A program made the position numbers and the translations under genes. 35,358 nucleotides of DNA from a virus. The stretch lies in IMG/VR virus record IMGVR_UViG_3300029951_001066, positions 1-35,358 of that record. One strand, 5' to 3'. The notes below the pieces were generated by a model. That model was not told the DNA's origin. It saw nothing but the letters and a program-made list of their open reading frames with translations, and searched no databases. Below, in pieces: positions 6,720-35,358 of the stretch. The stretch's first letter is position 1. Every line of letters starts with the position of its first letter.

Positions 6720-6727
6720 GGATCAAT

Positions 6728-7120
6728 ATGTCAACATCAACCATCAGCACGGCGTCACCGGCGCCTTTCTTCCCTGTTCTCTCGACAGAGCAGGACTCGA
6801 AATATTACTCGGTCGAAATGGAAGACGTCGCTGTCGTATCCGATACGGATGGCGGTTATATCGTGTCGCGCGCCAGAACGACCAAGCCGCCGCGTACCAA
6901 GTTCACGAGCGGCTTTACGGCAATCAGCAACGCCGATATGCAGTTGCTCCAGGCGTTTTACGCTTCAGTCCAGGGCGGCTCGGTGATTTTTGGGTGGAAT
7001 GACCCGATCTCGGCCACGACCTATCAGGTGCGCTTCATGGACAAAAAGCTCAATTTCAAGTACACCGGTGTCGGCTTCTCTAGCCTGTGGGACGTACAGT
7101 TCACGCTTCAATCGGTTTAA
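6728..7120 (+). CDS. Minor tail protein, gpM-like
   Basis: A 130-residue protein 8 bp after the tape measure, with an AAGGAT ribosome site. It is rich in beta structure and has the features of the lambda gpM family: an N-terminal FFPVLSTEQDSKYYSVEMEDV, a central segment describing a jelly-like fold, and a C-terminus of alternating hydrophobics (LWDVQFTLQSV). gpM helps complete the tail tip together with gpL, which is the next gene. Function comes from family resemblance and gene order (tape measure, M, L, K, I/J). It ends the transcription unit that begins at the chaperone genes; a promoter/operator element follows directly. Confidence 0.8.
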   Translation: MSTSTISTASPAPFFPVLSTEQDSKYYSVEMEDVAVVSDTDGGYIVSRARTTKPPRTKFTSGFTAISNADMQLLQAFYASVQGGSVIFGWNDPISATTYQVRFMDKKLNFKYTGVGFSSLWDVQFTLQSV

Positions 7121-7124
7121 TGTG

Positions 7125-7153
7125 TTGATAAGTCATCGGTGACTTAGTATAAT
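7125..7153 (+). promoter_or_regulatory. Promoter with palindromic element B in the spacer
   Basis: TTGATA (7125-7130), 17-bp spacer, TATAAT (7148-7153). The spacer contains the perfect palindrome TAAGTCA-TCGG-TGACTTA (7129-7146). The predicted transcription start is 7159-7161, that is, at the ATG of the next gene (7160), so the transcript would be leaderless. A factor bound to the palindrome would sit between the two promoter boxes, blocking or remodelling RNA polymerase binding. This is the best promoter match in the window. Confidence 0.85.
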
Positions 7154-7159
7154 CGGACT

Positions 7160-7789
7160 ATGCCTAAATCACTTTCCATTGCCAGCGTAATCGAGAAAAA
7201 CCGGCTCTCTTCGGGCACGCCTTGGCTTATCTGCATCGATATTTCCGTCATCGATCCGGCGTCTGGTACGCTGGTCGAGAAGATTTACCTCGTCCGCAAT
7301 ACGGAAGGGATAGTCTTCAACGGCAACACCTACATTCCAGCCAGCTTCGACATTCAGTTGATCGACGAGTCCGGCAAGCTCAACACGGTGAATCTGGTCA
7401 TCAAGGATTATACCGGCGCCATTCAAGCGCAGATGCAGCTTTATCAGGGCGGTGTTGGCTTTGCTGTCGCGGTCTCTATCGTCAATGCGGGCAACCTGTT
7501 GCAGCCGCCCGAAGTGGTCGAATACTTTCAGGTTGTCGGCGCGTCATCGAGCGTCTACGCGGTCACCTTCTCGCTAGGCGCACCGAACTTGCTGACGAAA
7601 GCATTTCCAAATCGCATTCAGTACCGCGACTTTTGTCAATGGCGCTACAAGGGGCCGCAATGCAACTATACCGGCCCGATGAACGCATGCGACCTTTCAC
7701 TGAATGGCGCGCAGGGGTGCGTTGCGCATGGCAACCAGGCGAACTACGGCGCATTCCCTGGCATCAACACTCAAAACACCAGCGCATGA
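7160..7789 (+). CDS. Minor tail protein, gpL-like, with four-Cys cluster
   Basis: A 209-residue protein between gpM-like and NlpC/P60 genes, the gpL position. The N-terminal 145 residues are a beta-rich domain of the DUF/gpL type (IYLVRNTEGIVFNGNTYIPA). The C-terminal part carries Cys159, Cys168, Cys177 and Cys187 in the pattern FCQWRYKGPQC...AC...GC; in lambda gpL an equivalent cysteine quartet binds an iron-sulfur cluster. There is no Shine-Dalgarno sequence before the ATG, and the -10 box ends only 6 bases upstream, so it is probably translated from a leaderless mRNA. Its TGA overlaps the next ATG (ATGA). Confidence 0.83.
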   Translation: MPKSLSIASVIEKNRLSSGTPWLICIDISVIDPASGTLVEKIYLVRNTEGIVFNGNTYIPASFDIQLIDESGKLNTVNLVIKDYTGAIQAQMQLYQGGVGFAVAVSIVNAGNLLQPPEVVEYFQVVGASSSVYAVTFSLGAPNLLTKAFPNRIQYRDFCQWRYKGPQCNYTGPMNACDLSLNGAQGCVAHGNQANYGAFPGINTQNTSA

Positions 7790-8166
7790 TCGCGCCTAAT
7801 TACGTCGACCTGATCGGTGCGCCATTCGAGTACGGTGGTCGCGGCCCAGGCAAATTCGACTGTTACGGGCTTGTGATGGAAATGCACAAGCGAAGCGGTC
7901 TCATCTTGCCCGACTTCGGCTTTGCAGACGACAAGGCGCTCATTTCCGCAATGATGGGCGTGACGATGCCGCAATGGAAGGAAGTCAAGCCGCGACCTGG
8001 CGCCGTTGTCCTGATTCGGATTCAGGGGCACATATCGCACGTCGGCTACATGATTGACCAGCATCAAATGATTCATACGTGGGAATGTTCCGGTGGTGTA
8101 ACGGTCATTCGCGCCGATCGATGGAAGCAACGAATTGTAGGGTTCTACGAATATGTCGGCAACTAA
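7786..8166 (+). CDS. NlpC/P60 tail peptidase (gpK-like)
   Basis: A 126-residue cysteine peptidase domain. I chose the ATG at 7786 because it overlaps the preceding stop (ATGA); a longer reading of the same frame only covers the gpL gene in another frame. The catalytic Cys26 sits in GKFDCYGLV, His85 in HISHVGYM, and a third polar residue is probably His97. The size fits an NlpC/P60 domain alone; the JAMM/Mov34 domain present in lambda gpK is absent. Such tail-tip enzymes cleave peptidoglycan cross-links during genome entry or tail maturation. The gene overlaps the start of the gpJ-like gene by 14 bp, suggesting coupled translation. Confidence 0.92.
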   Translation: MIAPNYVDLIGAPFEYGGRGPGKFDCYGLVMEMHKRSGLILPDFGFADDKALISAMMGVTMPQWKEVKPRPGAVVLIRIQGHISHVGYMIDQHQMIHTWECSGGVTVIRADRWKQRIVGFYEYVGN

Positions 8167-11100
8167 ACAGCCAAAGAAGCGCGCCCGCAAAGCAAAGACG
8201 GTATCGGCGGCAAAGATTCAGATACCCGTTATCCGAATCGTCAATCCGTTCAACCCGCGTGAGTTCGTGCGCGAAGAGGTGGTATGGGGCGCAACCAAGA
8301 CGCTGAACGACTACTTCCCCGAAGTGCCATCGGTGGTGTCGAACCAGAACGCTGTCGTTTCCATCAACGGCAAAATCGTTCCAAAAGAGCTGTTTTCTGT
8401 CACCTACCTGGACAAGACCGACAACTTGGTCGTTTGCCCGATACCGGCCGGCGGTGGGGGAGGTAGCGGCGGTGGCGGCGGTAGCGGCAAGATGATTCTT
8501 GAAATCGTCGCGATGATCGCGCTCGCTGTCGTTACGGCAGGCGCTGGTCTCGCCATTGCTGGCGCGATTGGTCTCAGCGGAACGGCGCTGACGGTTGGTG
8601 GCGCAATCATTCAAGCTGGCATTATGATGGCCGGCTCGATGCTGATTCACTCGCTTTGCGCTCAAAGTTCGCCCACCCAGACATCCACGGCGTCGTCAAG
8701 TTACGGGATCGACGGCGCCAAGACGACATCGACCGAGGGTATGCCGGTGCCCGTATCGTACGGCACATTCCGCATGGCGGGCAACATCGTTGATATGTAC
8801 ACCATCAATGACGGCAACACGCAATTGCTTTACATGCTGCTTGCCGCCGGCGAGGGCGTCGTTTCCAGTATTACCGACATCGAGATCGATCAAAATCCGA
8901 TCACCGACTACACGCAGATTCAGACCGACATCCGGCTTGGGCAGCCAAGCCAACCTGTACTGCCGTGGTTCAATCAAGTTATTGCGCCGTTCTCTGTGTC
9001 GCAAAGCCTGACGCCAACGCCGATTTACTACACAACGACGGCCAGCATTGACTCTTTCCGCATCGACCTTACGTGCCCAGGCGGACTCTATCGTACCGAC
9101 CAAAGCACCGGCGCCCTGGACATCTGGCCGGTTGGTGTTGTTATCCAGTATTGCCTGACCGGCACGAACGAATGGCAAAACATTCAGGTGACAAATCAAG
9201 TCATCGGCTGGCGCGCGGTCACGGCTATCGTCAGTAACTATCTGGCATCAGGGCTGTCCGATGTTGACGCCGATAATATCCAGATTACGGCAGATGGCGT
9301 TGCGATGGCACTCAACACGACGACCAATCAATATCAAGTCGTGCAGCCAAACTACCAGTGGGTATTTCCCGCAGGCGCAGAAGATCCAAATGGCGTAACG
9401 TATGCTGATGCCGGTCAGCCTGTCACAGACCCGACACAGCTCGCCTACCTGAACGCGAACTACGCCTATGACACGGCCAACGCGCAGATTCCCCTGTACG
9501 GTTCGGCCCTCACGCAATATGGCGCCGGTCAAGTGGTTCTTCAGGCTGCACAACAGGCCGCCTTCCGCGCCTCGTATTACTCTGGCGCGATCCCGAACGG
9601 AATATACGACATTCGCGTGTCGCGGACGATTCTCAAATCGACCGACCCAACGGTCTCGGACGACACCTGGCTGACCGACGTCAACGAGATTCAAAACCAG
9701 GCAATAAACTACACCAACACGGCGCTGGTTGGGGTCTTTGCGGTTCTCGGCACACAAATCACCAGCGTTCCGAACGTCACCTTCCTACACCACGGCATTC
9801 TGATCAACGTCTGGGGCGTGCCTGGCACATGGGCGACAGAAGAGCAATGGTATCCTGCCGCCAGCAGCAATCCGGCATGGATTCTATGGGATATGCTGAC
9901 CAATACGCGCTATGGCGCCTCAATACCGGAAGCGCAACTGGATCTGCCAGCATTCCAGAATTGGGCAAACTATTGCGTAGAGGAAGACCTGAACTGGAAT
10001 GGCCCGTTCGACACGGCGTCAAACATCTGGGATGCCTCGCAATTGGTATTGCGCGTCGGTCACGCGCAGCTCGTGTCGATCGGCACGATTTACTCCATCG
10101 TTACCGAGGCCCCAAGTACGCCGGTAATGATGTTCTCAGTCGCCAACATGATCACGGACACCTACACGGAAACCTGGCTCGGTACGGCTGATCGCGCGAC
10201 AGAAATCGACGTCACCTATTTTGATTCGACGGACTTCTACACGCAAAAGACGGTCAAAGTCTACGACCCAACCGCGCTCCAAGCCGGACGGCCTTCGAAT
10301 CCGTCCGCGATCACGATGTATGGCGTAACGGACGTAGCGACGGCTTACAAAGAGGCGCAGTTCATGTTGAACATGAACCAGTACATCCTCAAGACGGTGA
10401 CATTCAGCGCCCCGATGGAGGCAGTCGCCTGTAACCTTGGCGATCTGGTTTATATCCAGCATGACATGCCGAACTACGCCCAGGCGGGGCGGTTTCCGGC
10501 CGGCAGCACGACTTCGGTCATTAATCTGGATCGACCAGTCACGTTGAATTACGGCATTCAGTACATTCTGCTCGTGAATCACGACACGGCTGTCATGGCG
10601 ACCGGCACCATCACCAATATCGCCCTCGACACGATATTCATCACCGGCTTTAGCGGCACGCAGACGGTATCGCGCTTTGTGGTTGGCTCCATCGACACGC
10701 GCGTATCGGGAACCTTCGAAATCGCACCTGGCGTCTTTGGGGTAACCGTAGACGACCCAACGGGGCTTGCAGTAGGCGATACCTACACACTCTACGAAAC
10801 GGATTATGTAGAAACGGCAAACGTCGTCAACGCTACAACGCCGGACTCGCCAGCCGTAACGACCACGCTGACGCTCCAACACCCATTGATGCAGGCTCCT
10901 GCGCTCTATGCAAATTGGATGTTCGGCGACGTCACCAAGGCGCAGCAGATTTTCCGCATCACGAAGATCGAGGGGTCGCAAGATTACCGGCGCGACATTA
11001 CGGCGCTCCAGTACAACCCCCTGGTCTATGACTTTTCGCGTTACAGCTCGTCCATCCCGCCAATGCTTGAGGCGACATCAGGCCCGATCGGCCAAGTAAC

Positions 11101-22881: not shown

Positions 22882-23655
22882 ATGGCACGTAGTGATAAGT
22901 CAGACCGTAGCGGCAAACGTCAAGCGAAGCGCGCAGGAATACTCCCCGAACAGCAATTCTCAGATTACACAGTGCCGGCACGTCCGCTGCGCGCTGCGCC
23001 ATTTGAACCCAAGACCGACAAGCAGCGCAAGTACGCGGCAGCAATTCGCCTACCGGGTAGCGTTGTGTTCGGGATGGGGCCGGCGGGTACGGGCAAGACC
23101 TATGTGGCGGCTACCCTGGCGGCAGACGCACTGATGGAAAAGAAGGTTGACAAGATTATCCTGACGCGGCCGGCAGTCGAGGCGGGCGGCGAGAACTTGG
23201 GCTTTCTGCCAGGCGACAAGGAGGAGAAGTTCGATGCCTACTTCGATCCGGTGCGCGACGTATTCGAGGAGCGCCTGGGCAAGTCATTCGTGGACTATTT
23301 GATCAAAGAGGGGCGGATCAAGTGCGAGCCGTTCGCCTACATGCGCGGCAAGACCTTCAAACGCGCCTTTGTGATGCTTGACGAAGCGCAGAACGCGACA
23401 CCGGAGCAGTTCAAGCTGTTCCTGACGCGGATCGGTGAGGACGCAACCGTGGTTGTCAACGGTGACGAATCGCAGGTGGACATCAAAGGGCAGTCTGGCT
23501 TTGTCGATGCGGCCAACCGGATCATGCACATATCCTCGGTCAAGGTCGTATTGTTTGAAAAGAAAGATATCGTGCGTAGTGGCTTCGTGCGGGAGATCGT
23601 GGAGGCGTACGAGCAGCCGGCGCCGAGCCGCATCAACCCTGTGCTTTTGCGATAA
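22882..23655 (+). CDS. PhoH-like P-loop ATPase
   Basis: A 257-residue protein with the PhoH core. Walker A is GPAGTGKT (residues 66-73), Walker B/DEAD-like is VMLDEAQN (DEAQN 167-171), and ILTRPAVEAG plus GDESQVD are the other conserved PhoH blocks. The N-terminal 45 residues are basic and probably disordered. PhoH proteins are ATPases with RNA-helicase relatives and are very common in phages, though their role in infection is unsettled. The gene is the first of a two-gene unit behind promoter G. Confidence 0.92.
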   Translation: MARSDKSDRSGKRQAKRAGILPEQQFSDYTVPARPLRAAPFEPKTDKQRKYAAAIRLPGSVVFGMGPAGTGKTYVAATLAADALMEKKVDKIILTRPAVEAGGENLGFLPGDKEEKFDAYFDPVRDVFEERLGKSFVDYLIKEGRIKCEPFAYMRGKTFKRAFVMLDEAQNATPEQFKLFLTRIGEDATVVVNGDESQVDIKGQSGFVDAANRIMHISSVKVVLFEKKDIVRSGFVREIVEAYEQPAPSRINPVLLR

Positions 23656-23692: not shown

Positions 23693-23799
23693 ATTCACTT
23701 GGGAATGCCACGCTTAACATAAAGTCTTATCTATAATAAAGAAGTACAGATTTAAAGAAATACAGAATATACGCGGAGAGAGGCGGTTCCCAAGTGAAT
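23693..23799 (+). promoter_or_regulatory. Inverted repeat pair flanking an internal -10, covering a GTG start
   Basis: ATTCACTTGGGAA (23693-23705) and its exact reverse complement TTCCCAAGTGAAT (23787-23799) are 81 bp apart. The second copy contains the GTG (23794-23796) that starts the next gene, so base pairing in a long transcript would hide the start. Between the copies is TATAAT (23732-23737) in an AT-rich tract; a transcript starting there would lack the first arm. A 23-codon frame (23665-23736) also spans the first arm. Role inferred from geometry. Confidence 0.5.
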
Positions 23800-24519
23800 C
23801 AAGTGGAAGAGAAAGACACGCACGGCCCCTATTTTGGGTCGGAGCTAACCCGGAGTGAATGTGATGTGCTGGCGATAGCGAACATCGGCGTCAAGCTGCG
23901 GGATCGCGAGCAGGCGCTCATGAAGGATAAATGGTTCGACTACCGGCCCATGCACCCGACCCAGGCGACATACCTGTTTGCGCATCATTTCAACAGGGCG
24001 TACGGCAACTTCATGAATGTCGGGTACGGCAAGGGCGGCGGCTTCATGGCGTCATTCAAGGGCAAAGACTTCATACAGGTGCGGGAGAAAACGTCGTTCT
24101 GGAGTCTTCGTCAAAAGGTCGACGAGCTTGGCGTGCGATACGACTTCTTTTGCCGCAAAGCGATGGATTGGCACCTTGAGCGCGGCTGGCGACGGCCGCC
24201 GCGCCCTTGTCATGTGGTCAACAACAACGACATGATCGTGTATGTCATGAACGCGTGGGCGGAAGAGTGCGCCAGTAAGATCCAGTTTGCCAAATCGTCG
24301 CGCTTTACCGCCGCGCAACACGTCGGCGGCGAAGATCAGCTTGCGTACGAGGATTTCATCGTCGAGCAGATCAAACGCAAACAACATCCTAAATTCGCTC
24401 TGTACAGTGCGTTATATGTGCATGACGCAATTCGCATTGAGACAGCAATGCTGCACTTTTCTGAGGAGGTTATCTGCGAGGCCCGTGAATACAATAATTC
24501 ACTTTCTCAAGAAAGATAA
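23794..24519 (+). CDS. Unknown phage protein following PhoH
   Basis: A 241-residue protein. GTG 23794 is the first start in a frame closed by stops at 23734-23739; GGAGAGAGG lies ten bases upstream (another GTG at 23803 is possible). It contains many aromatic, His and Arg residues (HPTQATYLFAHHFNRAYGNFMNVGYGKGGG, HLERGWRRPPRPCHVV), suggesting nucleic-acid contact, and a helical C-terminus. I recognise no domain. Co-transcription with PhoH suggests a shared function. Its TAA stop belongs to palindromic element H. Confidence 0.75.
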   Translation: MNQVEEKDTHGPYFGSELTRSECDVLAIANIGVKLRDREQALMKDKWFDYRPMHPTQATYLFAHHFNRAYGNFMNVGYGKGGGFMASFKGKDFIQVREKTSFWSLRQKVDELGVRYDFFCRKAMDWHLERGWRRPPRPCHVVNNNDMIVYVMNAWAEECASKIQFAKSSRFTAAQHVGGEDQLAYEDFIVEQIKRKQHPKFALYSALYVHDAIRIETAMLHFSEEVICEAREYNNSLSQER

Positions 24520-24538
24520 GTAAGTGGTGAGCTATAAT
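24517..24538 (+). promoter_or_regulatory. Palindromic element H, diverged, with TATAAT
   Basis: TAAGTAA-GTGG-TGAGCTA (24517-24534) overlaps TATAAT (24533-24538). The left arm supplies the TAA stop of the upstream gene. Compared with copies B and G the -10 box is 3 bp closer, and no good -35 is spaced for it. Predicted start near 24545, leader about 40 bases for the Hfq-like gene. Confidence 0.55.
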
Positions 24539-24584
24539 TGAATTGTTCGAGTGAATAAGCAATCAGCAAATTACCAGGAGATTT

Positions 24585-24995
24585 ATGTTTTCAGCCTCAA
24601 AAACGCTACACGACAGCGTAGAACGTCAGCAGCAAATCGAAGAGGGCGCACGTCTGGCTCGTGAAGAGGGTGTCACGCCGGTATTGCAACGTACGACGCT
24701 AAAGCTGAAATCTGGCGCCCGTTCGTCTGCGGCACCAAAGAAGGAGCAGCCGAAGGGTCATGAAGCATTCTTGAAAGCGCTGGAGACTTCCGGTGCATCA
24801 ATTATCGTCGAGAAGTGCGACGGTACGGTAGTAAAGGGAGTCGTAAAGCATTCCGACAAGTACACCATCACGCTGCGCGCCCCAATCAACGGCGCACCAG
24901 AAATGACAATTGATCGTGTCGTCTTCAAGCATGACATCAGCGAGTTCTCACCGGCAACGCCACGCCCAGCAGTCAAGGAAGAAGCATGTCTGTAG
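24585..24995 (+). CDS. Hfq/Sm-like RNA-binding protein, phage-encoded
   Basis: A 136-residue protein with AGGAG before ATG. Residues 58-123 align along their length with bacterial Hfq: HEAFLKAL matches the QDxFLNAL start helix; the Sm1 part has C-DG (79-80) and D91-K-Y-TITL; the Sm2 part has VVFKHDISEFSP, matching the VYKHAIS..P signature (Lys115 and His116 equal to Hfq K56 and H57; Phe114 for Tyr55). A 7-residue insertion (RAPINGA region) separates the two motifs. The distal-face Tyr25 position is Glu, so RNA preference may differ. A basic 57-residue N-terminal extension is unusual; bacterial Hfq extends at the C-terminus. It overlaps the helicase start by 10 bp. Confidence 0.82.
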   Translation: MFSASKTLHDSVERQQQIEEGARLAREEGVTPVLQRTTLKLKSGARSSAAPKKEQPKGHEAFLKALETSGASIIVEKCDGTVVKGVVKHSDKYTITLRAPINGAPEMTIDRVVFKHDISEFSPATPRPAVKEEACL

Positions 24996-26437
24996 CAGCG
25001 GTAGAGGCAGAAGACGCGGTAGCCGCAATGATCGGCTCGGCCTATTCCCTCACCGCGTCGGCCCCAGGCGTAACGATCGAGGCGGACAAGTTCGACTTCG
25101 GTGCTGAGTTCCAGACCAAGATCGCCACGCATGTCATGCGTGACATCGGCTTTATGCGCAAGGTTGGGCATCTGGTAATGCCAGACTACTTCGAAAACGT
25201 GGGAGAGGCGGCTATCGTCAATCTTGCGCTGAAGTATTTCAAGAAATACAACGAGGTGCCAGAGGCGAAAGTCGCGATTCAGTTGGTCAGGGATGCGAAG
25301 ACGGATAAGACGATTCGCGGCGACGACCTGGCACTGGCTGGCGAAGCAATGCGGGCCGTATTCAGCAAAGACGCAAGTATCGGCAATAGCGACAGCATGG
25401 CCGAATCGGTCGCGTCGTTTGCTCGGTATCAAGCAATGTCGGCGGCGATCTTGAAGTCAGCAGAAATGCTCGACAGCAAGATCAATAAGGACGAAAAGTT
25501 CAAGAAGATCGAGGCGTCGATCAAGCTGGCCGCGTCTGTCGGCATGAACGTCGACGGCGAAGAGTACGACTACTTCGAAAGAATTACCGAGCGCACCAGA
25601 GAGCGCCAGGAGAAGACAGTGGCGGGCGCGGTGCCGGCCGGAATCACAACCGGCAACATTCAAATCGACAACCTCCTGTACCACAAGGGTTGGGGGCGTC
25701 GAGAACTATCCGTCATTATGGGCGGCGCCAAGTCGGGTAAAACGACCGCATTGCTGCATTTTGGGAAGTGCGCCGCGCTGTCGGGCCGCAATGTGCTGTA
25801 TGTGACGTGCGAAGTCGCCGGCAAGATCCTTGCGGAGCGTCTGGACGCGTCGATTTCAGGTATCGCGGTCAAGCAGCTTGAACTGAAGATCCATGATGTC
25901 GAAGACGTGATTCTCAAGCTGCCGAAACATGGCGCATTGAAGATTCACGAATACCCAAGCGGCACGCTGACGCCAGCAATGCTCAATGCGCTGATTCAGC
26001 GTTACAAGTCGCCACGGTTGAACGCGGACGGATCAACGGCGCCGGCAATCGTATTCGACATGGTAGTGGTCGATTACGCCGACATCATGTCGCCGGACTT
26101 CCGCACCAATGACGCTATCGAGAATTCCAAGAACATCTGGCTCGGTCTGCGCGCGATTGCGTTCGAAGAAAATCTCGCCATGCTGACTGCCACGCAAACC
26201 AATCGCGAAGGCAATAAGTCGGCGGTGGCAAAGGCGACAGACGTAGCGGAAGACTTCAACAAGATTCGGACAGCCGATATTGTGATTTCGATCAACGCGA
26301 CAGATGAAGAGCGTGCGGCCGGTGAAGCGCGCCTGTACTTCGCGGCGTCACGTAACCAGGAGTCGGGCTTTACGATCTTCATTAAGCAGGCGCTGTCCAT
26401 GATGCGCTTCATCACTTCGATCATCAAGGTGGAGTGA
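24986..26437 (+). CDS. DnaB-like replicative DNA helicase
   Basis: A 483-residue RecA-fold helicase. Residues 1-200 are a helical N-terminal domain (possible primase or loader contact). The core has Walker A GGAKSGKT (246-253), Walker B MVVVDYAD (Asp363), and the H3-like TATQTNREG segment, followed by SRNQESG near the C-terminus, all expected of DnaB-family hexamers. It overlaps the Hfq-like gene upstream and its TGA overlaps the primase ATG downstream (TGATG), so hfq-like, helicase and primase form one translationally coupled unit. It would unwind phage DNA at the fork. Confidence 0.92.
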   Translation: MSVAAVEAEDAVAAMIGSAYSLTASAPGVTIEADKFDFGAEFQTKIATHVMRDIGFMRKVGHLVMPDYFENVGEAAIVNLALKYFKKYNEVPEAKVAIQLVRDAKTDKTIRGDDLALAGEAMRAVFSKDASIGNSDSMAESVASFARYQAMSAAILKSAEMLDSKINKDEKFKKIEASIKLAASVGMNVDGEEYDYFERITERTRERQEKTVAGAVPAGITTGNIQIDNLLYHKGWGRRELSVIMGGAKSGKTTALLHFGKCAALSGRNVLYVTCEVAGKILAERLDASISGIAVKQLELKIHDVEDVILKLPKHGALKIHEYPSGTLTPAMLNALIQRYKSPRLNADGSTAPAIVFDMVVVDYADIMSPDFRTNDAIENSKNIWLGLRAIAFEENLAMLTATQTNREGNKSAVAKATDVAEDFNKIRTADIVISINATDEERAAGEARLYFAASRNQESGFTIFIKQALSMMRFITSIIKVE

Positions 26438-27531
26438 TGCACGACAACGAAGAACTTGACGAGGCGATACGCTCCATCGATATCGAGAATTGGCTCGATC
26501 AGGAGGGTGTTGACTATCGTCAGGCGCGCGGGTCGAGCGGGCGTCAGGCAAACATCAAGACGTGCCCATGCTGCGGCAATTCGAAGTGGAAGGTCTACGT
26601 CGGATTGGAATCTGGGCTAGGCAACTGCTTTGTGTGCGAAATGAAGTACAACAAGTTTTCCTTCATTCGGGCGCAGCTCGGCGTGTCGGGCAAGGATACG
26701 GTCGAGCATATCAAGGCGTTTGCGCGCGAACAGGGCTGGAGACCGGCAAAGCGAATTGGTGCGGCGGTCAGCTTGTCGCATGCCAGTTTGAAGCTGCCGG
26801 CGTCCATCGCCTTGCCGCATGAAGGGCGAAACCTGAAGTACCTGGAGAACCGGAATATCACGGCTGATGTTGCCAAGTATTTCGCGTTCCGATTCTCGCA
26901 GAAGGGTAAGTTCAACTATGAGGATGACAAGCACCGCAAGCTGTTCCAGGACTACAGCAACCGGATCATTATTCCGGTCTTTGACCTGGAAGGCGATCTG
27001 GTCAGCTTCCAGGGTCGCGACATCACCGGCAGGGCGGAAAAGAAATACTTGTTCCCGCCCGGCTTCGCGTCTACCGGCAAGCATCTGTACAACGGCCACA
27101 ACGCGGTCGGCGCGGCGCGTATCGTGATCGGGGAGGGGGTATTCGACGTGGCGGCAACAAAGATCGCTCTGGACGGTGATATGGCCCTGCGTGATGTTGT
27201 TCCGGTCGGCAGCTTCGGCAAGCACCTGTCGCACGGCGACGAAGATAGCCAACTCGCCAAGATCATGCGGCTGAAAGAGAAGGGGCTGAAGGAAGTAACG
27301 ATCATGTGGGACGCCGAGACTGCCGCGCTGGTTGCCGCTGTCGAGACTGGTATGAGGTTGATTGGCTGCGGGATACGAACGCGCATTGCTGTTCTGCCGG
27401 CGGGTTGCGATCCAAATGAGACTTCGGCAGCGAACGTGCGCGATGCATTCTGGAAAGCGGAAGTGGTCACTCCAATGATGGCGACACGATTGCGGTTACA
27501 GGCAAATCGATTAGGCAAGGTTGCAGCATAA
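26437..27531 (+). CDS. DNA primase with zinc finger and TOPRIM domain
   Basis: A 364-residue protein from ATG 26437 (GTG 26434 just before it is less likely; GGTGG fits the ATG). The zinc ribbon has Cys43, Cys46, Cys64 and Cys67 (KTCPCCGN ... NCFVC). The TOPRIM region has the Glu block IGEGVFD (Glu233) and the Asp block IMWDAE (Asp292), giving the primer synthesis core as in T7 gp4 or DnaG-type phage primases. It is shorter than host DnaG (about 580 residues), as is usual in phages where helicase is a separate protein. It ends at a TAA that is part of palindromic element I. Confidence 0.92.
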   Translation: MHDNEELDEAIRSIDIENWLDQEGVDYRQARGSSGRQANIKTCPCCGNSKWKVYVGLESGLGNCFVCEMKYNKFSFIRAQLGVSGKDTVEHIKAFAREQGWRPAKRIGAAVSLSHASLKLPASIALPHEGRNLKYLENRNITADVAKYFAFRFSQKGKFNYEDDKHRKLFQDYSNRIIIPVFDLEGDLVSFQGRDITGRAEKKYLFPPGFASTGKHLYNGHNAVGAARIVIGEGVFDVAATKIALDGDMALRDVVPVGSFGKHLSHGDEDSQLAKIMRLKEKGLKEVTIMWDAETAALVAAVETGMRLIGCGIRTRIAVLPAGCDPNETSAANVRDAFWKAEVVTPMMATRLRLQANRLGKVAA

Positions 27532-28109: not shown

Positions 28110-28820
28110 ATGATCGAAAATTTACCGACGACGGAAGTCGACAAGAATTACCCGCCAGAACATTCGGCAAGCCCATACAACGCCTATTACCTACGCGGGT
28201 GCCCTGTCGTTGAGCGCAGTCCGGCCTACGCGTCGTGCCTGTACAAAGTCTCGGAACTGGAAGCTGGTCGACCTGTCGCTACCGCCGCCGACTGCAACCA
28301 GGCGATTCAATGCAGGCGCTGTCAGGCGAAGGATATGCAACAGCAAGAGAAATTGAAAGGCGTAGCACTGTTCTTTTTCCCAAGTCTGGCGTACCAAAAC
28401 AAGGCGATAACAAACCTGACGCCGGAAAGCGAACTGCCGCGTCGTCAGAATGGCGACACGCGCCAAGCGCCGTTCGTGAGCAACGTATATGGCGCGGCCA
28501 ACTATCGCGGCCGCTATCAAGAATACGTGCCACCGGCCGGCCGCAAAACTGGTATCGCGGCAGTGCCGACCGTTCCTGCGCTCAAGTCAACCATCAAGGC
28601 GCCGCTTATCGACAGCGGTAGCTACGCGGACGCATTCAACACGGCAATGACTAGCGTGCCAGAAGTGCCCAAGACAACAGTGGCAGCGATCGCCAGGCCG
28701 GCCTCGACCCTGACGATCAAAAGCATTTCAGGGCGGCCAATGATGCTGCCCAACGAATCACCTTTGCAGTACGCGCGGCGCATTGCTGCAACCCTTAATC
28801 AACAAACGGAGAATGTATGA
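28110..28820 (+). CDS. Unknown Cys-containing protein before DNA ligase
   Basis: A 236-residue protein with CAGGAG before ATG. Five cysteines lie in the first 72 residues (Cys31, Cys43, Cys62, Cys68, Cys71), the last three in DCNQAIQCRRCQ, which could bind zinc. The middle is Tyr/Arg/Gly rich (NVYGAANYRGRYQEYVPP), suggesting a flexible or nucleic-acid-binding section. The C-terminus ends with a helical MLPNESPLQYARRIAATL. It overlaps the ligase start by ATGA, so it may work with the ligase. No family recognised. Confidence 0.72.
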   Translation: MIENLPTTEVDKNYPPEHSASPYNAYYLRGCPVVERSPAYASCLYKVSELEAGRPVATAADCNQAIQCRRCQAKDMQQQEKLKGVALFFFPSLAYQNKAITNLTPESELPRRQNGDTRQAPFVSNVYGAANYRGRYQEYVPPAGRKTGIAAVPTVPALKSTIKAPLIDSGSYADAFNTAMTSVPEVPKTTVAAIARPASTLTIKSISGRPMMLPNESPLQYARRIAATLNQQTENV

Positions 28821-30250
28821 AACTCGAAATGAATAGCGACGAAGTGTTTGGACTGATCAAGACGATCGGAGACACGCCAGGCAAGAACGATAAGGAAGCG
28901 ATGCTGAAGGCTTGCGCGAGCAGTGAATTGCTTAAGCGCGTCCTCAAGGCGGCCTGCGACCCGACGATAAGCTACGGCATCAAGAAGGTTCCGCCGCGCG
29001 ACGCGCCGGCAGTCGCAACACGAAACTTCAATGAAGACACTTGGGCCGTTCTCGAAGCGATGCGCACGAGAGCGCTAACGGGCAACGCCATGCAAAGCGC
29101 GGTATCGAACGAACTCAACAGCTTGACGGCAGAGTCGGCCGAGCTTTTCAAGCGCGTCATGCTGAAAGACCTGCGGGCCGGCTTTGCTGAAAACACGACC
29201 AATAAGGCGTTTCCCGGTCTGGTGCCTGACTTCCCCTACATGCGCTGTTGTCTGCCGAAGGACACCGACATGAGCGATTTCGATTGGTTCAAAGGCGAGA
29301 TTTCGCAGGAAAAGGCCGACGGCATGTTCTTCAATGTCGATCACGAAGCCAGCGGCGAAGTGTTCTTGTCATCGCGCGCGGGTAGCCAGTTCCCGACCGA
29401 TGAATTCGGCGACTTGATCGCGGATGTGAAGCGAACACTCAAACCAGGAACGCAAAGTCACGGCGAGGTCATCGTTGAGCGCGACGGCTCAACGCTTGCC
29501 CGTGAAATTGGCAATGGCATTCTCAACAGCGTCTTGAAGGGCGGCGTGTTCGGGCTAGGCGAGAAACCGGTGTTCCTCGTATGGGATCAGATACCACTAA
29601 CCGCTGTCGTGCCGAAAGGTAAATACGTCGAGCCATACAGAAAGCGCCTGGCCGACATTCTGACGCAGGTCAATGCTGTCAGAGAAACTTCTGGCGGCCA
29701 TGTTCTTTCCTGCGTTCGCTTGATACCGACACGCATCGTCAAGAGCCTCGAAGCGGCTTACGCGCATTACGGGGAACTGCTTGCGCAAGGCAAAGAAGGC
29801 ACGGTGTTAAAGCGCGGCAAAGCGATCTGGCGAGACGGCACAAGCAAAGATCAGATCAAGCTCAAGCTGGAGTTCGTGGTGGATCTGAAGGTTGTCGCGA
29901 TCGTTCCAGGCAAGGCAAACGGCAAGAACGCTGGGCGCCCCGGTAGCTTGGCGTGCGAAACGTCTGAAGGTTTGCTGCGCGTGGATGTGACCGTCAAGAA
30001 TGAAAAGTTGCGCGACGAGATTGAAGCAAATCCGGCAGACTGGATCGGCAAGATCATCAAGGTGTGCGCGAACGGCATCATGAAACCCTCTGACAGCAAC
30101 ACTCTTTACTCGCTGTTCTTGCCGCGCATGGTCGAGGCTTGTTACCGTCTGGACAAGTTTGAACCCGATAGCCTGGAGCGCGTATTCGAACAAGAGGCTG
30201 CGGCCAAGTCCGGTGCGGCCATTGCAGAAGCTATGAAGAAGGCGGCGTGA
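28817..30250 (+). CDS. ATP-dependent DNA ligase
   Basis: A 477-residue enzyme of the T4/T7-type nucleotidyltransferase family. Motif I is EKADG with adenylated Lys166. Other landmarks follow: SSRAGSQFP (motif Ia), GEVIVE (motif III Glu), EGTVLKRGKAIWRDG (motif IV), and QIKLKLE (motif V lysines). The N-terminal 150 residues are helical (DNA-binding), and the last 120 resemble the oligonucleotide-binding domain. It would seal nicks using ATP, during replication or repair of phage DNA. The gene is coupled at both ends (ATGA overlaps). Confidence 0.9.
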   Translation: MKLEMNSDEVFGLIKTIGDTPGKNDKEAMLKACASSELLKRVLKAACDPTISYGIKKVPPRDAPAVATRNFNEDTWAVLEAMRTRALTGNAMQSAVSNELNSLTAESAELFKRVMLKDLRAGFAENTTNKAFPGLVPDFPYMRCCLPKDTDMSDFDWFKGEISQEKADGMFFNVDHEASGEVFLSSRAGSQFPTDEFGDLIADVKRTLKPGTQSHGEVIVERDGSTLAREIGNGILNSVLKGGVFGLGEKPVFLVWDQIPLTAVVPKGKYVEPYRKRLADILTQVNAVRETSGGHVLSCVRLIPTRIVKSLEAAYAHYGELLAQGKEGTVLKRGKAIWRDGTSKDQIKLKLEFVVDLKVVAIVPGKANGKNAGRPGSLACETSEGLLRVDVTVKNEKLRDEIEANPADWIGKIIKVCANGIMKPSDSNTLYSLFLPRMVEACYRLDKFEPDSLERVFEQEAAAKSGAAIAEAMKKAA

Positions 30251-30791: not shown

Positions 30792-31024
30792 CTTTGAAGC
30801 GATTTTTAATCGAGCGTACGGTGACCTCCGCAGCAGGCACACAGATATTTTTCGTCGACGCCAATTCGGAAGAAGAGGCTTTGGCGAAACACAAGAATGG
30901 AGACGGTGGGATGTATTCGAGCGAGGTAGAGGTTCAAAGTCTTGGTGAGCCATGCATATCCGGTACTACAAATCTCGATGACGGCGGAGACTTCGCCAAC
31001 AACCCAAATAAGGAGGAAGTATGA
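30788..31024 (+). CDS. Small unknown acidic protein
   Basis: A 78-residue protein overlapping both neighbours by ATGA. The sequence starts KRFLIERTVTSAAGTQIFFVDANSEEEAL, an alternating pattern of a small alpha/beta fold of the kind often seen in phage-encoded hypothetical proteins, and it ends with acidic, Gly-rich residues. An AAGGAGGAA ribosome site for the next gene lies in its last codons. Confidence 0.7.
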   Translation: MTLKRFLIERTVTSAAGTQIFFVDANSEEEALAKHKNGDGGMYSSEVEVQSLGEPCISGTTNLDDGGDFANNPNKEEV

Positions 31025-31683
31025 AGCGCATCACCACATTGACAGGGCCGTCCTGTTCCGGCAAGTCAACCCTCGAAGCGATGATGGCGGAACGCGGCTG
31101 CCTCAAGGCCATTTCCACGACCACCCGTTCACCCCGCGCCGGCGAAGTGAATGGTAAAGATTACTACTTCGTGAGCCAGGACGAGTTCGCCGCGATGCGT
31201 GACGCAGGCGCATTTGTCGAGTATGTCCAGTTCGGCGAACACTGGTACGGCATGTCGACCGATGAGCTGCTGCGGCTTTTCGCGATTGGGGATCACGTCG
31301 TCATCGTTTGCGAGCCAATTGGCGCCAAGCAGATTTACCAATACTTCAAACATAACGCCAGCTTCAAGTTGGTTCAGGTCTTCATCGACAATGCCAAATC
31401 GGTCATCAATCAGCGATTCTTGAAACGCTTTGGCGATGACTTGGTAAAGGCGCTGGTCAAGGGCGACTTCAGCCACCAGAAGGTTATTGAAGACGGCGCA
31501 AAGCGCATGGCGATCATGACGACGACCGAGCAGAAGTGGATCAGCGACGCATACATGCCAGAAGGCGATTTCCGCTACAGCCTGGTGGTGTCGAGCTTTA
31601 CCGAAGACAACTGCGACAGTGTTGCCAATGCACTGACGAAGACAAAAATGGGATTTCGCAACACTGTGGGGCTACTCTTATAG
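31021..31683 (+). CDS. Guanylate kinase-like nucleotide kinase
   Basis: A 220-residue protein with a P-loop GPSCSGKST (residues 9-17) and the guanylate-binding block TTTRSPRAGEVNGKDYYFVSQDEF, which closely follows bacterial Gmk (T-x-R-x-P-R-x-G-E-x-x-G-x-x-Y-x-F). The middle (FGEHWYGMSTDELLRLF) matches the usual GEHYG region. The C-terminus extends the family (about 205 residues in hosts) and diverges. It would phosphorylate GMP or dGMP to raise dNTP supply during infection. A strong AAGGAGG site precedes the ATG. Confidence 0.85.
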   Translation: MKRITTLTGPSCSGKSTLEAMMAERGCLKAISTTTRSPRAGEVNGKDYYFVSQDEFAAMRDAGAFVEYVQFGEHWYGMSTDELLRLFAIGDHVVIVCEPIGAKQIYQYFKHNASFKLVQVFIDNAKSVINQRFLKRFGDDLVKALVKGDFSHQKVIEDGAKRMAIMTTTEQKWISDAYMPEGDFRYSLVVSSFTEDNCDSVANALTKTKMGFRNTVGLLL

Positions 31684-32812: not shown

Positions 32813-32933
32813 TCCTGCCGAATATACGAATCGACTTATGTGCGTTATACTGGATGCAGGGCGGATGAGAAAATAGGCTGGGCGTTTATCAAGGCGGATA
32901 TGTATCGTAAGTAATTGATTTTAAATGATTACC

Positions 32934-32983
32934 AGCGGCCTGCAAAGCCGTGTAGACCGGTTCGACTCCGGTCCCCGCCTCCA
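32934..32983 (+). other. tRNA-Cys(GCA) 3' fragment, attachment site core
   Basis: The sequence reproduces the 3' two thirds of a tRNA: an anticodon stem CGGC...GCCG with loop CTGCAAA (anticodon GCA), a variable stretch, a T arm ACCGG-TTCGACT-CCGGT, and the 3' acceptor strand CCCCGCC-TCCA. The 5' acceptor (expected GGCGGGG) and D arm are missing upstream, so it is not a working tRNA gene. Such a 3' fragment is what a tRNA-targeting integrase leaves or carries. The similarity fades left of 32934. Confidence 0.85.
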
Positions 32984-32997
32984 TAATATCAAGGACT

Positions 32998-33044
32998 TAG
33001 CCCATGCTGGGCTAGTTCAAGGTGGTTTGGCGCTAGTTCGCCAA
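32998..33044 (+). repeat. Inverted and direct repeats beside the attachment site
   Basis: TAGCCCA-TGC-TGGGCTA (32998-33014) and TTGGCG-CTAGTT-CGCCAA (33027-33044) are two stem-loops. GCTAGTTC occurs at 33011-33018 and 33032-33039, 21 bp apart (two helical turns). A third inverted repeat, ACGGC...GCCGT, lies near 33064-33081. Candidate integrase arm-type or directionality-factor sites; inferred. Confidence 0.45.
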
Positions 33045-33116
33045 TGTGGTAATACCCCCTTGAAACGGCCAATTTGCCGTAGACAGTCTGAAAGCTCGTC
33101 GACACCATACTTAATT

Positions 33117-34220
33117 ATGTCGACGATAAAATCATTCCCAAACGGGAAATTCCAATTACGTGTTACGAACAAATCACTCGATAAGCCGTTCTATGCGACT
33201 TTCGAATCTCGCGAGCAGGCACTTGCTTACGGTGCGCAGCTAGAAGGTTTGTTGGCACAGGGAATTGTTCCGACCTTCCTTCTTGATCGTAAGCACGGTC
33301 TGGAGACTTGGACGATATCCCGATGCATGAACGAATACCTGCGTGATAATTCTGTTCCCGTTTCCGATGTCAAATTGCTGCATACTATTCGCCCCTCATT
33401 GCTTACCTGCACAACCGGTTTTTTGAATTACGATTGGGCGGAGGGATGGATCCGTGAAATGAAACGAGTCCAGAATCTTTCCCCTTCTACGATTCGACAC
33501 CGGCACGGTGCCCTCGCGCGTTGCTTCGATTGGATGATCAGAAAACATCCCGACATCATGGCGCAAAACCCATTGCGTCTTCTCAAGCGTGGTTTTGCTT
33601 CCTATACGGAAGAGGATAGTCAACTCCTCATTGCCATTGGTAAGAAACCTAAATTCGACGTGGAACGTGATCGGCGTCTCGATACCGATGAAGAAAAACG
33701 CATCCTAAAAATTCTGGGGAACACGCCGGACGAAAAAGTCTTCTTCATTCTTGCTCTCGAGACGGCCATGCGTATGCGAGAATGCTATACGCTTAGCGTC
33801 GATCAGGTTAGCCTGATAAAAAAGACCATTCATCTTGAGCGCAGTAAAAATGGCGACAATCGACAGGTGCCGCTTTCAAGCACCGCCATCGCGTTATTGG
33901 ATGACTATCTGAGAATTCATGCAAAAGGAATCAAGGGGAGGGAGGGGCGGTTATTCCCGTTTTGGAACGGCAGCCGGAATGAGCGTGAACTCGACATTAC
34001 GACAAGCGATTTGTCGCGTACGTTCAGAGGTATCTTTATAGACTCAGAGGTCGTTGATCTGCATTTCCATGATCTTCGGCATGAGGCTACCTGCAGATTG
34101 TATGAAAAGACCAAGCTGTCCGACGTTTTGATATCAAAGATTACCGGTCATCGGGACGTCAGGATGTTGCAACGTTACGCAAGCTTGCGTGGGAGCGATC
34201 TGGCCATTCATCTTTGGTAA
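33117..34220 (+). CDS. Tyrosine-family site-specific integrase
   Basis: A 367-residue integrase. I chose ATG 33117 because the longer frame (from 32925) reads through the tRNA fragment; no ribosome site is visible for either. The N-terminal 75 residues resemble an arm-binding AP2-like region (STIKSFPNGKFQLRVTNKSL), then a SAM-like core-binding part (WAEGWIREMKRVQNLSPSTIRHRHGAL). Catalytic residues are in place: Arg219 (ETAMRMRE), His318 and Arg321 (HDLRHEA), His345 (GHRDV) and Tyr354 (LQRYAS). It would recombine at the adjacent tRNA-Cys sequence. By eye its GC content is lower than the phage body. Confidence 0.92.
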   Translation: MSTIKSFPNGKFQLRVTNKSLDKPFYATFESREQALAYGAQLEGLLAQGIVPTFLLDRKHGLETWTISRCMNEYLRDNSVPVSDVKLLHTIRPSLLTCTTGFLNYDWAEGWIREMKRVQNLSPSTIRHRHGALARCFDWMIRKHPDIMAQNPLRLLKRGFASYTEEDSQLLIAIGKKPKFDVERDRRLDTDEEKRILKILGNTPDEKVFFILALETAMRMRECYTLSVDQVSLIKKTIHLERSKNGDNRQVPLSSTAIALLDDYLRIHAKGIKGREGRLFPFWNGSRNERELDITTSDLSRTFRGIFIDSEVVDLHFHDLRHEATCRLYEKTKLSDVLISKITGHRDVRMLQRYASLRGSDLAIHLW

Positions 34221-34341: not shown

Positions 34342-35358
34342 TTATCGACCTGCGGCATTGGCCTTCTGTTGTATGACCCGACAGCGTTCCAGCAATGTGT
34401 CGAACGGTTCAGGGTCATCAAGGAACAATCCGTCATCAATCATGTGTTGATAGTCCGCTGACAATTTCACCAGTGCACCATCGCCAGGGATAAGTTGCAG
34501 GGCGCCCGATACCGCCGCTCGATAATCGATGACGTCACCTTGCGTGTTTTTCTCCGCAAAGAAAGCACTTTTGTGTTCGGCTACCGCGCTAGCGAGTGCT
34601 GTGTCAGCGATGGCAGCATCTACGAAGCCGGCAGCATCCAGTTGAGATACGTCATGCCAGTGACGCGCGAAGCGCTCGCCGCCACGGAATGCGCCTTGTG
34701 CGCAAAACACGTGAATTGCCGTCGCCTTTTCCCTGAATGTGCGTTCAGCACGCATGACTTGTGGCGTAGCGGTTGGAAACTCTATTCCTGGCAGATAAGC
34801 AGCTGCATCGCAGCGTATAGCGCGCGGTTCGCTAGGCTCTCCGGTTGAGCGGGCACCAAACTCCAACATGACTGTAGAGGCGACATAGCCGGTGCCTTTT
34901 GCTAACGGTATGTAATCGATGAATACGTTGTCGTTTTCAGATCGCACGGTTGCCGGTAATCCCGAGTGCTCAAGATCCTGCTTGAGTCGAGGCGCGATCT
35001 CTGCGTCGACCCAGCCAGCGAGGCGTGTTCGAATTTCCTTGCTCCATCTCTTCTCTTGGCTCTTGGTGACCGGCAAAGGCGAATCCGCCTCGCCCACAAT
35101 GTCGGCAGCGATCGCACGGATATCGTAAGTCCAATCCACGTCCTCGGAAAAGCGTTGGATGACACCGTAAGCCTTCGATAGCGAGGTGCCGCCCTTGAAT
35201 ACCAAGTGGTCAGCGTATGGTCCGGTAAAGAGGTGCCGCAATGTCCAGACCACCCAAACGTCTTTCTCCAAAAGATGCGGCAAAAGGCCCGATGTGCTGG
35301 CGGCCGCGTCGAGGGCGTCCAAGCGTTCGGTCGTAGATAGCTTAAAGAACTCAGTCAT
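34342..35358 (-). CDS. AbiEii/MenT-type nucleotidyltransferase toxin
   Basis: A 338-residue protein on the minus strand; its ATG is the last triplet of the window. It has the nucleotidyltransferase core FKGGTSLSKAYG (residues 54-65) and SEDVDW with Asp73 and Asp75, which are the metal-binding residues of AbiEii toxins. A later REKATAIHVF helix (KxxA-type motif) is also typical. AbiEii toxins pair with an AbiEi antitoxin, normally encoded directly upstream; here that would be to the right of 35358 and out of view. Such pairs give abortive-infection defence and stabilise mobile elements. It converges on the integrase gene with a 121-bp gap that holds nothing recognisable. Confidence 0.85.
   Translation of the reverse strand: MTEFFKLSTTERLDALDAAASTSGLLPHLLEKDVWVVWTLRHLFTGPYADHLVFKGGTSLSKAYGVIQRFSEDVDWTYDIRAIAADIVGEADSPLPVTKSQEKRWSKEIRTRLAGWVDAEIAPRLKQDLEHSGLPATVRSENDNVFIDYIPLAKGTGYVASTVMLEFGARSTGEPSEPRAIRCDAAAYLPGIEFPTATPQVMRAERTFREKATAIHVFCAQGAFRGGERFARHWHDVSQLDAAGFVDAAIADTALASAVAEHKSAFFAEKNTQGDVIDYRAAVSGALQLIPGDGALVKLSADYQHMIDDGLFLDDPEPFDTLLERCRVIQQKANAAGR

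Follow-up and report, generated by a model that had tools for sequence, protein, structure and literature searches.

A gene directly ahead of a DnaB-type replicative helicase in a 35,358-nt viral sequence (IMG/VR record IMGVR_UViG_3300029951_001066, positions 1 to 35,358; hereafter the window) encodes a 136-residue protein that, by structural modeling, has the Sm/Hfq fold. Judged from aligned sequences, the family of this protein keeps the proximal base pocket of Hfq and has lost the distal and rim surfaces. We give a probability of about one half to the reading that it is a phage-specific Sm/Hfq-fold protein acting with the replication machinery or its RNAs. The features of the window that bear on this reading are collected in Table 1.

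Table 1. Positions of the Hfq-like gene, its neighbors and the dyad elements in the window
Feature	Position	Strand	Basis
PhoH-like ATPase, start of conserved module	22882..23655	+	Pfam PhoH, E = 2.1e-72
phrog_2500 protein, conserved upstream neighbor	23794..24519	+	phrog_2500, E = 2.2e-60
Dyad ATAAGTAA-GTGG-TGAGCTAT overlapping a TATAAT -10-like element	24516..24545	+	Dyad scan
Hfq/Sm-like protein, 136 aa	24585..24995	+	Pfam PF17209 over gathering cut-off, AlphaFold2 fold, PDB matches, family alignment
Sm/Hfq domain core, residues 58-124	24756..24956	+	Joint alignment with bacterial Hfq, structural alignment ranges
DnaB-type replicative helicase	24986..26437	+	Pfam DnaB_C, E = 1.5e-11; phrog_19, E = 4.7e-73
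DNA primase, same module	26434..27531	+	phrog_47, E = 1.9e-53
ATP-dependent DNA ligase, same replication block	28817..30250	+	phrog_114, E = 1.8e-106
Dyad copies	585, 7128, 13883, 19512, 20521, 21392, 22822, 24516, 27528		

Predicted fold and protein layout

The original prediction, made from the sequence of the window, had proposed an Hfq-like Sm fold for this protein. Searched as a single sequence against Pfam, the open reading frame matched the Hfq family PF17209 at 28.2 bits (E = 1.5e-6), only just above the gathering cut-off of 27 bits, and it missed the NCBIfam Hfq equivalog cut-offs for functional orthologues (TIGR02383, 19.3 versus 61.7 bits; NF001602, 20.2 versus 95 bits). PF17209 was matched by 26 of 27 aligned relatives (E ≤ 1). 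A search of PDB sequences with the family profile placed Hfq at the top (best E = 7.6e-5), and each of the 26 chains scoring below E = 0.4 was an Hfq; profile-profile comparison with host-type Hfq aligned 57 columns (E = 3.4e-6, probability 88%). The protein is a member of the PHROGs profile phrog_5258 (E = 2.5e-11) and its family also matches phrog_19781 (E = 4e-7); both are listed as of unknown function.

AlphaFold2, given the family alignment and a single chain, predicted an alpha-beta5 Sm fold with a mean block pLDDT of 92-96 over residues 61-120, in which a helix (residues 58-69) is followed by strands at 72-77, 82-90, 94-101, 104-114 and 118-124. All 50 matches listed by Foldseek for this model in the PDB were Hfq, and structural alignment to Caulobacter Hfq (VIA) gave Z 11.0 and an rmsd of 1.1 Å over 63 residues. 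The proposed fold is thus borne out at the level of prediction. Profile comparison links a divergent sister clade, with the motif W-S/N-H-Q-D-D-L, to the window family (E = 2.5e-9), and the model for this clade likewise has an Hfq fold (Z 10.5; best Foldseek E = 1.1e-3). Compared with Sm/Lsm proteins (PF01423), the window clade was closest to Hfq; the sister clade was about equally close to Hfq and LSM by sequence.

Outside the domain core, the layout comprises a separate N-terminal helix (residues 7-27), a basic linker (about 35-57) and a short C-terminal tail. The extension had been described as basic, which agrees with a net charge of +4 over its 57 residues and +5 over the last 30, and nearly all relatives have such an extension. 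The insertion noticed between the Sm motifs corresponds to an L4 loop about 8 residues longer than that of host Hfq, the extra length varying among relatives.

Conservation of the RNA-binding surfaces

In the proximal site of Hfq, the aromatic residue at position 42 and residues 8, 41 and 56 contact the base and His57 contacts the ribose 2'-OH; position 42 is Tyr in Staphylococcus aureus Hfq and position 41 is Lys in Bacillus subtilis Hfq (PMC10628458). The distal site is formed by Y25, L26, N28, I30, Q52 and T61 and the annealing rim by R16, R17 and R19 (PMC10628458). The window protein shares with bacterial Hfq (PF17209, TIGR02383) the Sm fold, the (Y/F)KH Sm2 motif, Asp40, the aromatic residue at 42, Lys56 and His57. 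Its proximal-pocket residues are H59, which replaces Gln8, together with D91, K92, Y93, F114, K115 and H116, the last three being the F-K-H signature that had been pointed out beforehand. It differs from bacterial Hfq at the distal face, where Lys31 is replaced by Val and Tyr25, as previously noticed, by Glu (E76), as well as in its longer L4 loop, its basic N-terminal extension, its location in a phage replication module and a score far below the equivalog cut-offs. The distal ARN site is lacking, with E76, K77, D79, T81, R111 and E120 at the positions of Y25, L26, N28, I30, Q52 and T61, and these positions are unconserved across the family. The rim arginine patch of the Gram-negative type is likewise lacking: the window protein has E67, T68 and G70 in place of R16, R17 and R19, and most family members are without the rim arginines.

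Because many loci were found with the patterns FKHDISE and GHEAFLK, conservation counts from them are partly circular, and we used a helicase-seeded set for the key claim. This set was scanned by the helicase alone, and Hfq-like reading frames were then recognized in the fetched DNA by the family profile, so that the test is free of the search patterns, yet not of all sequence similarity. Among its 25 distinct sequences, which include the window protein and its nearest relative, the Gln8 position is His in all 25, as invariant as Asp40, an aromatic residue at 42 and Lys56; 24 have Gly34 but just 12 have His57, and the positions of Tyr25, Lys31, Arg16, Arg17 and Arg19 are unconserved. The same picture was seen in 51 distinct, mostly pattern-found sequences, except that 48 of them have His57. 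Since the ribose contact of His57 is lost in half of the helicase-seeded set, single-stranded DNA is a possible ligand, and the lack of His57 in most members of the sister clade likewise suggests that the ligand may not be RNA. The earlier suggestion that the protein may bind different RNA is reasonable, given a kept pocket and lost distal and rim sites.

A slot before the replicative helicase

Scanning viral contigs gave 24 relatives, and with the family alignment the number rose to 64 loci in IMG/VR. A helicase lies downstream of the Hfq-like gene in all 64, and phrog_2500, phoH and primase genes flank it on contigs of sufficient length. The overlap with the helicase start that had been reported for the window amounts to 10 nt. 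Across the 63 loci in which both ends could be placed, the Hfq-like stop lies at most 20 nt from the helicase start in 62, and the two genes overlap in 28. The next junction in the window is also tight, the primase gene overlapping the helicase stop by 4 nt.

The same order occurs in the Nickievirus phages Nican01, phiK7B1, hairong and nickie, and the same slot before dnaB is used on Acinetobacter (pABTJ2 type) and Aeromonas plasmids wherever the neighborhood was read. In the plasmid collection, 165 records contain a match, 151 of them from Acinetobacter and 11 from Aeromonas, and most plasmid records among the matches listed are 100-115 kb long; the other three are two from Cupriavidus and one from Microvirga that is annotated hfq. 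Phage Hfq homologues had been called rare, which is right only in part: within one large group of phages and phage-plasmids of about 110 kb, the family occurs regularly.

Starting from the helicase, we found an Hfq-like reading frame in the slot before it in 34 of 49 loci. In eleven of the 15 loci without a match, the matched parts of phrog_2500 and the helicase lie just 180-281 nt apart, which leaves no room for the gene; two more loci are cut by the contig end and two have very distant helicases. The gene is also absent from the same block in SSU5 (SSU5-like), Cyrano and several Rhizobium phages; since SSU5-like and Rhizobium phages run the module without it, the gene is not essential to the helicase. 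Two candidates were set aside. A 69-aa reading frame in the same slot of the Stenotrophomonas phages ANB28/BUCTxx99 (locus L032, 2781-2990) has no detectable similarity to the Hfq-like family; it overlaps the helicase start by 8 nt and possibly encodes another small barrel. A match in pPa_SNUABM_DT01 was taken as chance, as it is weak (E = 2) and maps to a gene of 2,691 nt that neighbors a tail-fiber gene, with no adjoining helicase.

Helicases of the window clade begin with a conserved peptide, approximately DSVAxMIGxSFxG, followed by a variable linker (24986-25090 in the window). About 36 residues precede the helicase core in this clade, against 6-27 in phages without the Hfq-like gene, and the peptide is missing both from the helicases of those phages and from those of the Hfq-positive sister clade. 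In locus L024, the helicase (6149-8960) carries an in-frame insertion of more than 400 residues directly after the P-loop GGPKAGK; it starts with Cys and ends with His-Asn and is a probable intein. Farther downstream in the window, the replication region encodes a guanylate-kinase-like protein (31021-31683). A tyrosine integrase gene (32925-34220) is followed by an AbiEii-type toxin gene on the opposite strand (34342-35358), which runs to the contig end; the region could be a boundary between prophage and host, or cargo. The window contains no tRNA.

Dyad elements and the leader of the Hfq-like gene

The window has 9-10 copies of the dyad ATAAGTCA-N4-TGACTTAT, most of them intergenic, against 0.8 expected from a simple base shuffle with up to 4 mismatches allowed. 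We searched for it across 13 whole virus records of 81-118 kb. In 11 records there were 22-44 forward matches versus 1-6 for a reversed control pattern; G007 had 29 matches versus 11 for the control, and G014 had no excess (5 versus 4). The repeated dyads look like operator sites for a single phage regulator. The exact pattern of dyad plus CTATAAT was present in 15 fetched loci, once in each, directly before the Hfq-like gene. A dyad lying over a TATAAT element, as a single copy before this gene in 15 loci, suggests that the unit has its own regulated promoter, and the element in the window is the probable promoter/operator of the Hfq-helicase-primase unit. Consensus searches for sigma-70 -35/-10 promoters and terminators gave results not above shuffles. 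A Shine-Dalgarno sequence, AGGAGA, lies 5' of the Hfq-like ATG.

Action of the protein on phage leaders near palindromes had also been proposed. This idea finds no footing here, as the palindromes are the DNA dyad repeated genome-wide and the leader of the Hfq-like gene in the window is no more structured than shuffled sequences (z 0.2). Over all relatives, the average leader z is -0.28, and no Rfam family was found in the window. In many relatives (L004-L015, L025 and L039-L041) the leader opens with a short hairpin, the stem of which differs in sequence from phage to phage; the hairpin is absent from the window and from L003.

Possible roles of the Hfq-like protein

In our main reading, the Hfq-like protein belongs to a replication module that runs phoH, phrog_2500, Hfq-like gene, dnaB, primase and ligase. 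The protein most likely assembles into a ring of the Hfq type, which would bind short single-stranded U/A-rich nucleic acid through the proximal pocket only (H59, K92, Y93, K115, H116), and the basic N-terminal tail may help in this binding. The overlapping genes are consistent with protein and helicase being made together by translational coupling. The targets would be the replication machinery or its RNAs, that is, primers and replication-gene or copy-control transcripts. The protein would not be a general sRNA-mRNA matchmaker, a reading that is weak given that neither the distal nor the rim site is kept. Hfq affects the replication of ColE1-type plasmids, and E. coli Hfq is without effect on lambda plasmids (PMC4963395). 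Adjacency alone is no proof of functional interaction, since phoH and phrog_2500 are equally conserved neighbors. A more specific proposal, which we regard as rather doubtful, is that a six-fold Hfq-type ring is the dedicated partner of the six-fold DnaB-type helicase and holds U-rich primer RNA or single-stranded DNA at the fork or origin, as an Sm-fold component of the replisome or of copy control.

A serious alternative, to which we give somewhat less than even odds, is a phage riboregulator. Its proximal face would bind U-tails on RNAs of the phage or the host and affect how stable these RNAs are or how they are translated in infection or lysogeny; the protein would then be an Hfq of reduced function or would compete with the Hfq of the host. 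This reading would account for proximal base-contact residues that are kept or are known variants (Tyr42 as in S. aureus, Lys41 as in B. subtilis), except for His at Gln8 (PMC10628458), and for the ribose contact retained in most of the pattern-found set, and a plasmid-encoded Hfq with physiological effects, Hfq3, does exist (PMC5348863). Yet the toxicity of Hfq3 needed distal-face residues (PMC5348863), whereas here the distal ARN site and the rim arginine patch are lost; the window contains no Rfam RNA, the gene's own leader is unstructured, and a fixed slot beside dnaB is unexpected for a general riboregulator. The stronger claim that the protein redirects host small-RNA control is not supported, as it lacks the surfaces with which Hfq holds mRNA and anneals sRNA to mRNA, and the single host genome available for checking, a metagenome-assembled genome containing locus L026, encodes a normal Hfq (G011, 103 bits). 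The protein might still compete for U-tails by way of its proximal pocket.

The Sm ring could instead be a protein-protein adaptor of the helicase, a loader or stabilizer for which nucleic-acid binding is secondary. Six-fold symmetry would fit a DnaB hexamer, the two genes are tightly coupled, and the N-terminal peptide and linker of window-clade helicases are lacking in phages without the Hfq-like gene. But phylogeny confounds the link between the peptide and the presence of the Hfq-like gene, and helicases of the Hfq-positive sister clade are also without the peptide; a pure adaptor has no need of invariant base-pocket residues, and Pfam and PHROGs searches found no similarity to known loader families, so that we consider this role unlikely. 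Least credible of all is a chance resemblance of an Sm-like beta-barrel with no relation to Hfq: a single-sequence score barely over the Pfam cut-off and the missed equivalog cut-offs would fit it, but profile, PDB-profile, profile-profile and structural evidence each indicate Hfq, and K56 is invariant among sequences reached through the helicase.

Related proteins and significance

Genes of this kind are already known, and NCBI automatically names some relatives 'Hfq'. Our search of the open-access literature, outside which most subscription journals lie, returned no paper on a phage-encoded Hfq or on these relatives, and an Hfq fold that keeps the proximal site alone and has a constant position before the replicative helicase appears to be undescribed there. 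Rule-based labels such as 'RNA chaperone Hfq' suggest a host-like riboregulator; the comparison points elsewhere, to a family with only the proximal pocket, linked to the replicative helicase in some 100 loci as well as in phage-plasmids that are widespread in Acinetobacter and Aeromonas. The family offers a simple test of whether Sm rings serve phage or plasmid replication, and if they do, that would bear on the long-noted but poorly understood connection of Hfq with plasmid replication.

The nearest named counterparts are the Nickievirus 'hfq' of Pseudomonas phage Nican01 (XAI70047.1) and its homologues in nickie, phiK7B1, ZY21 and hairong, which occupy the same slot between phrog_2500 and dnaB. 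They are 26-31% identical to the window protein and match Pfam Hfq, hairong above the cut-off, but have a shorter N-terminus and, in Nican01, phiK7B1 and nickie, Ser at His57; in our search they were met with solely as automatic annotations. The homologues on Acinetobacter (pABTJ2 type) and Aeromonas plasmids of about 100-115 kb, named 'RNA chaperone Hfq' or unnamed, show about 30-43% identity over the core and share the slot before dnaB; in pABTJ2, RepM lies upstream where the phage module has phoH. Hfq3 of pXO1 is likewise an extra Hfq on a mobile replicon, but its toxicity on overexpression requires the distal face (PMC5348863), a surface that the window family has lost. A predicted Hfq-like fold in phages is also found in BFVD for the Mycobacterium phages Tonenili and Phabba, whose proteins match weakly (E = 8e-5 to 8e-4) at 11-14% identity. 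In one bacterial genome, a 212-aa open frame beside a normal Hfq contains a second, divergent Hfq domain (50 bits; G058:C2:1082362-1082541).
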